Shown here piece by piece: positions 15,401 to 16,000 of a stretch of DNA of 64,000 bases. The notes below the pieces were generated by a model. That model saw only the letters and a program-made list of their open reading frames with translations. It searched no databases and had not been told where the DNA came from. The DNA lies in contig NZ_OY776414.1 of NCBI RefSeq assembly GCF_963675585.1, positions 2,583,001 through 2,647,000 of the forward strand. The letters run 5' to 3'. Position numbers and translations under genes: made by a program. The stretch's first letter is position 1. Every line of letters begins with the position of its first letter. Source of the stretch: an uncultured Draconibacterium sp. Its GTDB lineage: Bacteria > Bacteroidota > Bacteroidia > Bacteroidales > Prolixibacteraceae.

Positions 15401-15882
15401 CCGTGCGTTGTTCCTTTAATAATTACGGTAACTCCAGGAAGTGGTTCACCGTATTCGTCGGTAACTTTACCTGTTGTTTTCTCTTGCTGATTTGAATTTG
15501 TAAGTTTTGAGTTTCCGCTTTTTGACTGAACTAGGATTAGCCTGTCTTTTACCTGGTAGGTTAAATCAGTTCCACGAAATAGTTGTTCAAGAATTACAGA
15601 GATTTCTTCTTCTTTCGTATTTATCGAAACTTTTTTATTTAATTCAACCTGGTCGTTATCATAAAAAAACCGATAAGTTGTGTTGTCTTCAATTTCTTCA
15701 AATACTTCTAAAATAGTTGAATTTTTTATGTTCAGATCGAGTTTACCTGCCTGAGAATACACCTTGGCAGAAATCTGCATAAAGCTTAGAAAGAGTAATA
15801 GTGTTGTTAACTTTGCCATAAGCATTAGTTTTTTCAGAGGAGTGTACGCATACCTCTCCTTCTGCAGTCTAAATTTTTTCAT
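12439..15882 (-). CDS. susC: SusC/RagA TonB-dependent transporter with STN domain (module 1)
   Basis: 1147 residues. Signal peptide to about residue 44; STN domain about 48-120 ([19 protein letters not shown]…[11 protein letters not shown]); carboxypeptidase-D-regulatory domain about 137-210 ([26 protein letters not shown]); plug about 215-345 with [11 protein letters not shown] and the SusC signature PLIVLDGI…[28 protein letters not shown]; then a 22-strand barrel ending in LKVSF. It imports oligosaccharides across the outer membrane using TonB energy. The STN domain is the part that signals to a FecR-type anti-sigma factor, and such a gene lies directly upstream (fecR at 16024-17025). Regulation is expected through the sigma/FecR pair and possibly the antisense RNA predicted at its start. 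Confidence 0.97.
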   Translation of the reverse strand: [1147 protein letters not shown]

Positions 15883-15889
15883 ACATTTG
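15882..15889 (+). promoter_or_regulatory. Candidate -7 box (TACATTTG) of an antisense transcript over the susC start
   Basis: This is an exact TAnnTTTG match on the plus strand, beginning at the last base of the complement of the susC start codon. TTCTG about 17 bp upstream is a partial -33 match. In module 2 an 8-mer differing from the consensus at one position starts at the equivalent base (37516). Confidence 0.45.
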
Positions 15890-15895
15890 CTTTGT

Positions 15896-16000
15896 TAAGT
15901 TTTTGATTATAGCCAGTGGCTATATGATAATTTTAAAAAATAGAAACCTTGGTTTCTGAATTAAACGGGAAATGTTGGCGCATTTTCCGTTTTTTTTAGT
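15896..16000 (+). ncRNA. Predicted cis-antisense small RNA opposite the susC leader (module 1)
   Basis: Predicted from structure only. There is a plus-strand -7 box at 15882-15889. A perfect small stem-loop follows (15909-15923, ATAGCCA-G-TGGCTAT). A terminator hairpin with eight Ts ends it (15963-15999). An RNA of about 100 nt would pair with the 5' leader of susC mRNA. Cis-encoded antisense RNAs in the anti-sigma/susC gap are known from Bacteroides fragilis (DonS), where they repress the susC homologue; assigning this one to that type is inference. See the matching element at 37531. Confidence 0.5.
15963..15999 (+). terminator. Plus-strand terminator with conserved loop, fecR-susC gap (module 1)
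   Basis: The arms AAACGGGAAATG and CATTTTCCGTTT pair with one G-T wobble around the 6-nt loop TTGGCG, and a T-tract follows on the plus strand. The adjacent fecR and susC genes are both on the minus strand, so the terminator is oriented for an antisense RNA. Confidence 0.65.

Follow-up and report, generated by a model that had tools for sequence, protein, structure and literature searches.

Predicted cis-antisense RNA genes in the fecR–susC gaps of two ECF/FecR modules from a Draconibacterium genome

The work on DonS is reportedly that of Cao et al. (2016, J Bacteriol 198:2410). In the accessible parts of the later literature, repression by DonS of Bacteroides fragilis is in print, and first 10 and later 32 PUL-associated antisense RNAs are counted in B. 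thetaiotaomicron (PMC7366714, PMC10994844, PMC11697453), with lengths of 78–128 nt (PMC7366714). DonS is the only such RNA for which repression is reported to have been shown. Both anti-correlated and positively correlated asRNA–PUL pairs are reported in B. thetaiotaomicron, and the accessible text describes PUL-associated antisense RNAs as a class needing functional study (PMC10994844).

Two elements with this anatomy are present in the window, namely the whole 64,000-nt stretch of DNA from an uncultured Draconibacterium sp. that was analysed here. Comparative anatomy strongly supports reading both as cis-antisense RNA genes and, with a probability of about 0.77, each site would be such a gene of 79–106 nt, equipped with its own promoter and terminator, that holds susC down and sets a feedback threshold. 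Like DonS-type RNAs, the elements diverge from a PUL susC homologue at its 5′ side, have predicted lengths (106 and 79 nt, from signals) comparable with the 78–128 nt given in the accessible text of PMC7366714, and carry a promoter and a terminator of their own in the form of sequence signals. The ‘brake’ role is borrowed from DonS and would hold by analogy. In Bacteroides sp. GM023 and Phocaeicola faecalis, a share of the FecR gaps shows the same anatomy in the form of sequence signals. Unlike DonS-type RNAs, the elements belong to a host from another lineage and their transcripts are predicted; moreover, the start-codon-locked −7 box, the tie to FecR and the GCCTATG element described below go unmentioned in the accessible portions of the published DonS-type accounts. 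The kind of RNA is already known; as far as the searches go, the locked promoter, the FecR tie, the spread beyond Bacteroides and GCCTATG are undescribed. Literature searches, with subscription journals largely outside their reach, recognised no such RNAs outside Bacteroides, and no Rfam family reached threshold at the two window sites. In a permissive Rfam scan of ten loci, the only family to appear was the GibS sRNA (RF04182), which aligned weakly over its full length with the antisense strand of the host gap L001 (31.7 bits, E 0.95); this was treated as chance, the score being far under the gathering score of 115.

Both modules follow the gene order ECF sigma factor, FecR, susC-type receptor with STN domain, SusD. 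Judged by gene content, module 1 comprises on the minus strand an ECF sigma factor (17101–17715), a fecR-type anti-sigma factor (16024–17025) and a susC-type TonB-dependent receptor with an STN domain (12439–15882), and module 2 the same three genes on the same strand (38822–39499, 37607–38620 and 34190–37516, respectively). The 25 named matches to the FecR of module 1 are all from Bacteroidota, the nearest being a Bacteroidetes MAG, followed by Draconibacterium, and such relatives point to class Bacteroidia for the host. The surrounding PUL (6004–26668) encodes GH106, an alpha-L-rhamnosidase (GH78-like), GH92, GH95 and a sugar isomerase, an enzyme set that makes a rhamnose-rich polysaccharide the likely substrate of module 1. 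Elsewhere in the window, a Cobalamin riboswitch lies at 49025–49207 on the minus strand (99 bits).

The antisense signals all lie on the plus strand. In module 1, the −7 box of the predicted antisense promoter, TACATTTG (15882–15889), matches TAnnTTTG exactly, with a first T that lies opposite the A of the susC ATG; in module 2, the box TAATTTTA (37516–37523) begins opposite the A of the ATG and keeps 5 of the 6 specified bases, a mismatch that counts against the main reading. These boxes opposite the ATG, the second with one mismatch, had been proposed in the first-pass annotation and can be read directly in the sequence, and their position is locked, as the counts below indicate. According to the accessible part of PMC9723704, the TAnnTTTG box sits at −12 to −5; therefore, the starts, placed earlier at 15896 and 37531, are corrected to 15894 and 37528. 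With its start set 12 nt after the box's first T and its end at the T-tract, the predicted RNA of module 1 measures 106 nt (15894–15999); that of module 2 measures 79 nt (37528–37606), and both are supported by a covariance-model match and a folding z-score. The predicted start base is a G in 14 of 21 host-genome loci. At the same 21 loci, no TTTG partner of the −7 box occurs at a fixed position around −33, which again counts against the main reading.

Each predicted RNA opens with a stem-loop, at 15908–15924 in module 1 (8-bp arms with 1 nt between) and at 37545–37570 in module 2 (10-bp arms), in agreement with the earlier proposal apart from slightly different limits. Module 1 has a second stem-loop (15942–15957), absent from that proposal, of which the stem is kept and the loop changed in the related Draconibacterium locus L110. 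Intrinsic terminators with a T-tract pointing away from susC, likewise anticipated, are present at 15963–15999 (hairpin 15963–15992, then the T-tract) and at 37574–37606 (hairpin 37574–37599, with a T-tract to about 37606 that touches the fecR stop codon). The predicted RNAs have folding z-scores of −3.41 (module 1) and −5.98 (module 2). The complementary strands fold well too (−5.33 and −4.08, respectively), and the sense leader of module 1, with a z-score more extreme than that of its antisense strand, counts against the main reading. Cognate RNA–leader duplexes were computed at −174 and −138 kcal/mol versus −60 and −50 kcal/mol, respectively, for the best non-cognate ones among 21 host-genome loci. 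The longest exact stretch common to any of the 21 host antisense RNAs is 15 nt and the next 12 nt. Since paralogous RNAs share at most 15 nt exactly, a mainly cis action is likelier, and a trans-acting role between paralogues is disfavoured. Over 80 selected loci, the predicted lengths range from 67 to 128 nt; at loci outside the host genome, only hairpins within 130 nt of the start were counted.

How general the anatomy is was assessed across the host genome (6.03 Mb). A FecR_C search gave 36 rows and 30 loci, of which 27 are readable to a downstream receptor frame; the other three (L028–L030) are FecR_C-like matches within receptor frames, have no gap and were left out. By a folding-based finder for hairpins of up to 40 nt, 22 of the 27 gaps have an antisense-directed terminator and 3 have one on the sense strand, all three weaker than −12 kcal/mol. 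Five gaps have no terminator; therefore, the RNA appears dispensable to some FecR modules, and the idea that every ECF/FecR module has its own element holds for both modules of the window and not for these five host gaps.

For comparison, susC-type genes were drawn from 61 of the 63 SusC/RagA signature rows, two extra domain matches in the C1:693130 frame being dropped. The exact box at offset 0 is found in 15/25 fecR-adjoining susC-type genes versus 0/36 others (Fisher p 4.6e-8), in 16/25 versus 0/36 when any ATG of the frame is allowed and, with at least 5 of the 6 bases, in 20/25 versus 4/36. An antisense hairpin of −12 kcal/mol or stronger accompanies 21/25 versus 0/36 (Fisher p 1.0e-12), and 9 of the 36 control leaders have weak hairpins that all fall short of −12 kcal/mol. 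In these counts, the gene at C4:2200897, whose upstream fecR frame is broken, was scored without an element, though the covariance model described below detects one. Other host gene starts (211, from 400 kb) yielded one exact box, nine boxes with at least 5/6 bases and eight antisense hairpins of −12 kcal/mol or stronger. When 260-nt stretches of the 21 host loci were scanned, 16 exact boxes stood at offset 0 and four at other positions. A generic start-codon context as the origin of the box was rejected in view of the 36 other susC-type genes and the 211 other gene starts. As a separate observation, many host susC-type genes adjoining fecR encode an initial stretch of some 20 residues (MKKN...IMK) that precedes a second methionine and the signal peptide, and the antisense promoter overlies this extended start. 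At L077:12056-12264 (C4:2202056-2202264 of the host genome), the fecR matches are divided over two frames with susC downstream, and the gap still holds an antisense element.

A covariance model (R1) was built from 16 host-genome elements, with both window elements as well as L002, L003 and L005 held out. Its top two matches in the window are the two sites, namely module 2 (E 8.9e-9, match 37502–37609) and module 1 (E 1.2e-6, match 15868–16000); the third-best has E 2.4. Over the whole genome, with 150 of 8804 candidates scored, R1 found at least 22 matches at E <0.01 (the 16 training loci and 6 held out). All 22 listed matches adjoin fecR on its gap side, one such fecR having a broken frame, and the next match among those listed has E 0.28. 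The earlier prediction of twin cis-antisense RNAs thus stands as regards the RNAs, through held-out matches, the covariation and direction of the terminators, the box lock and the relatives, whereas ‘twin’ understates at least 22 elements in the genome. When R1 was run over the window plus 400 kb (464 kb), one extra match at E <0.01 appeared besides the window sites and the L077 site; this match (L068:5989-6079, minus strand, 36.9 bits) lies behind a minus-strand gene and looks like an ordinary terminator. On the whole-genome scale, 36.9 bits fall between E 0.006 and 0.28, and the site is absent from the listed whole-genome matches. At L020, where the folding finder sees no terminator, R1 gives a weak match (23.5 bits, E 0.049 in 59 kb).

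In the terminator stem, all 10 of 10 pairs vary on both sides across the 16 sequences, with a covariation of 0.636 versus a shuffled mean of 0.294 (reached in 0/500) and at most 0.247 for slid partners; as the 16 loci were preselected for having a hairpin, this selection favours pairing, but not that alignment or register. R1 is AT-rich and overlooks many relatives that the FecR-anchored analysis detects. Applied with stricter filters to 149 genomes of the class, it gave 27 matches at E <0.01 in ten other genomes, so that the covariance search proposed at the outset, with a model from 16 other host loci, both recovered the two sites and reached beyond the host. Among these 27 matches, 22 lie in fecR gaps (21 by coordinates, L255 by Pfam), 2 precede a TonB-receptor gene without fecR immediately upstream (L254 and L267) and 3 lie elsewhere (L249, L252 and L257, judged from frames). 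With 22 of 27 in fecR gaps and five outside them, the tie to FecR is strong, though it has exceptions. At L267 (G129:C4:67300-71400), the element stands before a second susC-type gene of a PUL; the receptor, STN-like by eye, is behind a SusD-like gene, and the contig has a fecR about 6 kb away.

The anatomy is conserved in relatives. L110 (Draconibacterium), whose FecR shares 74% identity with the module 1 protein, retains the box, the two upstream stems and the terminator; its loops have changed, and the terminator shows one compensated pair by eye; the hairpins expected in the same gap of a close relative are thus present. For relatives, up to six ATGs were tried and the best-matching box was taken, a more lenient rule than in the host count of 25 versus 36 genes. 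By this rule, 7 of 25 named loci related to the module 1 FecR have the exact box together with an antisense hairpin of −12 kcal/mol or stronger: L110, L111 and L112 (Draconibacterium), L113 (Phocaeicola), L115 (Daejeonella), L120 (Sphingobacterium gobiense) and L126 (Chitinophagaceae). In L120 the box stands at the third ATG, L118 (Draconibacterium) has a box with one mismatch, and L116 and L119 have an exact box and no terminator. The exact box was not found in any of seven Flavobacterium loci (L123, L128–L133); their gaps hold an antisense-directed hairpin of different, conserved sequence.

In Bacteroides sp. GM023 (15 loci of 65 FecR_C rows), an exact box is present in 6, an antisense hairpin of −12 kcal/mol or stronger in 10 and any sense terminator in 2 of the 15; in P. 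faecalis (15 of 20 FecR_C rows), the counts are 8, 9 and 3, respectively.

Longer hairpins are visible by eye in L082 and L083, which were scored as misses because the finder is limited to 40 nt. The genomes of the class contributed 82 loci, 3 of them without a readable receptor frame; in the 79 readable ones, a hairpin of −12 kcal/mol or stronger lies on the antisense strand in 44 and on the sense strand in 1, and the exact box occurs in 21. Many of these loci, above all those with short gaps, have neither box nor hairpin. In the phylum sample, the 18 loci from outside the class (16 readable) yielded neither an exact box nor a hairpin of −12 kcal/mol or stronger.

On the susC strand, a further motif recurs near the hairpins. 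It was counted in 80 loci having a hairpin and, outside the host, a box with at least 5/6 bases; the near-duplicates L112, L232 and L234 were removed, and L113 and L152, which are one place of one genome, were both kept, making 79 distinct loci of 80. GCCTATG occurs no more than 100 nt upstream of the hairpin in 24/80 loci versus 0.10 expected under a first-order Markov model. A relaxed form is found in 34 loci, 22–64 nt before the hairpin (32 within 46 nt), and AACCTT lies 20–23 nt upstream of the motif in 5 of the 34. The form GC[CT][TA]ATG is present in 33/80 loci on the susC strand and 0/80 on the opposite strand and, in the host genome, in 10/25 fecR-adjoining susC-type leaders versus 2/36 others. 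In module 1, GCCTATG (16013–16019, minus strand) is, from these motif counts, a candidate −10 element of an ECF-dependent susC promoter; it is not present in module 2. Upstream mini-ORFs (an ATG with an early stop) were set aside as an explanation, because the bases before the ATG are fixed while the codons and stop positions after it vary. The motif is thus a candidate for the promoter at which the ECF factor starts susC transcription in FecR modules, a prediction from sequence counts. In the accessible text of PMC11501099, an anti-sigma mutant of B. thetaiotaomicron has a 5′ end that maps within the anti-sigma gene, 291 nt ahead of BT1875, and has no housekeeping consensus; BT1875 is presumably the susC of its locus, judging by its place, and the 5′ end agrees with a sense start beyond the antisense region.

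The mechanism proposed is as follows. The housekeeping sigma factor would start the RNA from the −7 box overlapping the susC start codon, and the RNA would run away from susC through the gap until its own terminator stops it before, or at the end of, fecR. Spanning the gap between its start and terminator, it would therefore be complementary to most of the susC leader, with complementarity ending about 11 nt short of the susC start codon. Antisense transcription may then pair or collide with leader transcription and hold susC expression down. The targets would be the ECF-driven susC mRNA and also read-through from ecf–fecR, the latter being included because few gaps (3/27) have a sense-strand terminator. 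As a result, the positive feedback from SusC through FecR and ECF to susC would fire only above an induction threshold. Such a threshold device is attractive because the element accompanies FecR feedback and because, with few sense terminators, read-through would otherwise enter susC. A broader scheme is offered tentatively, in which the fecR–susC gap of several Bacteroidia families might be a compact two-promoter module: an ECF promoter (GCCTATG, in some with AACCTT about 20 nt upstream) would start the leader, a housekeeping promoter locked to the start codon would make an RNA that ends just before the ECF promoter and mirrors almost the whole leader, setting the SusC–FecR–ECF threshold, and receptor genes outside such loops would go without it.

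The main rival, which is rather unlikely, keeps the interference and leaves the RNA product without a role, polymerase collision or occlusion in the leader doing the work. It is consistent with an antisense promoter that faces the candidate sense promoter at about 110–175 nt and with a terminator placed before the candidate ECF promoter, so that antisense polymerase would be confined to the leader. Yet the extra stem-loops, which the window copies have and many members show by eye, and the covarying terminator stems resemble those of a stable RNA; a bare collision promoter would need no 5′ stem-loops. In addition, Northern blots verified five DonS-like RNAs in B. thetaiotaomicron according to the accessible text of PMC7366714.

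The hairpins might instead serve in the sense leader of the susC mRNA (stability, translation or RNA–protein control), with the box as a start-codon context. That every stem can form in sense RNA too (z −5.33 and −4.08) fits this improbable reading, against which stand T-tracts mostly on the antisense side (22 versus 3 of 27 host gaps; elsewhere 44 versus 1 of 79 at −12 kcal/mol or stronger) and a box found in 0/36 host susC-type genes without a neighbouring fecR and in 1/211 other starts. Slightly less probable again is a terminator that only shields fecR from stray antisense transcripts begun within susC, with no dedicated promoter; an imperfect box in module 2 and hairpins without an exact box in some gaps would suit it, but the exact box holds one position in 16/21 loci and recurs there in other families, and none of the 36 non-FecR susC-type genes has a hairpin of −12 kcal/mol or stronger. 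Chance hairpins within a gap can practically be discounted: the gaps are AT-rich and 9/36 control leaders have weak hairpins, but the E-values of the held-out model, the control gene starts and the covariation contradict such an origin.

For the family as a whole, reading the sites as cis-antisense RNA genes has several consequences. R1 gives the class a sequence definition, the listed whole-genome matches at E <0.01 all lying in fecR–susC gaps. The class is tied to one architecture, the ECF/FecR system with its positive feedback, and is extended to other Bacteroidia families. A candidate ECF promoter motif is supplied for FecR loci, and single leader bases are identified whose change should abolish the predicted RNA and leave the protein unaltered.
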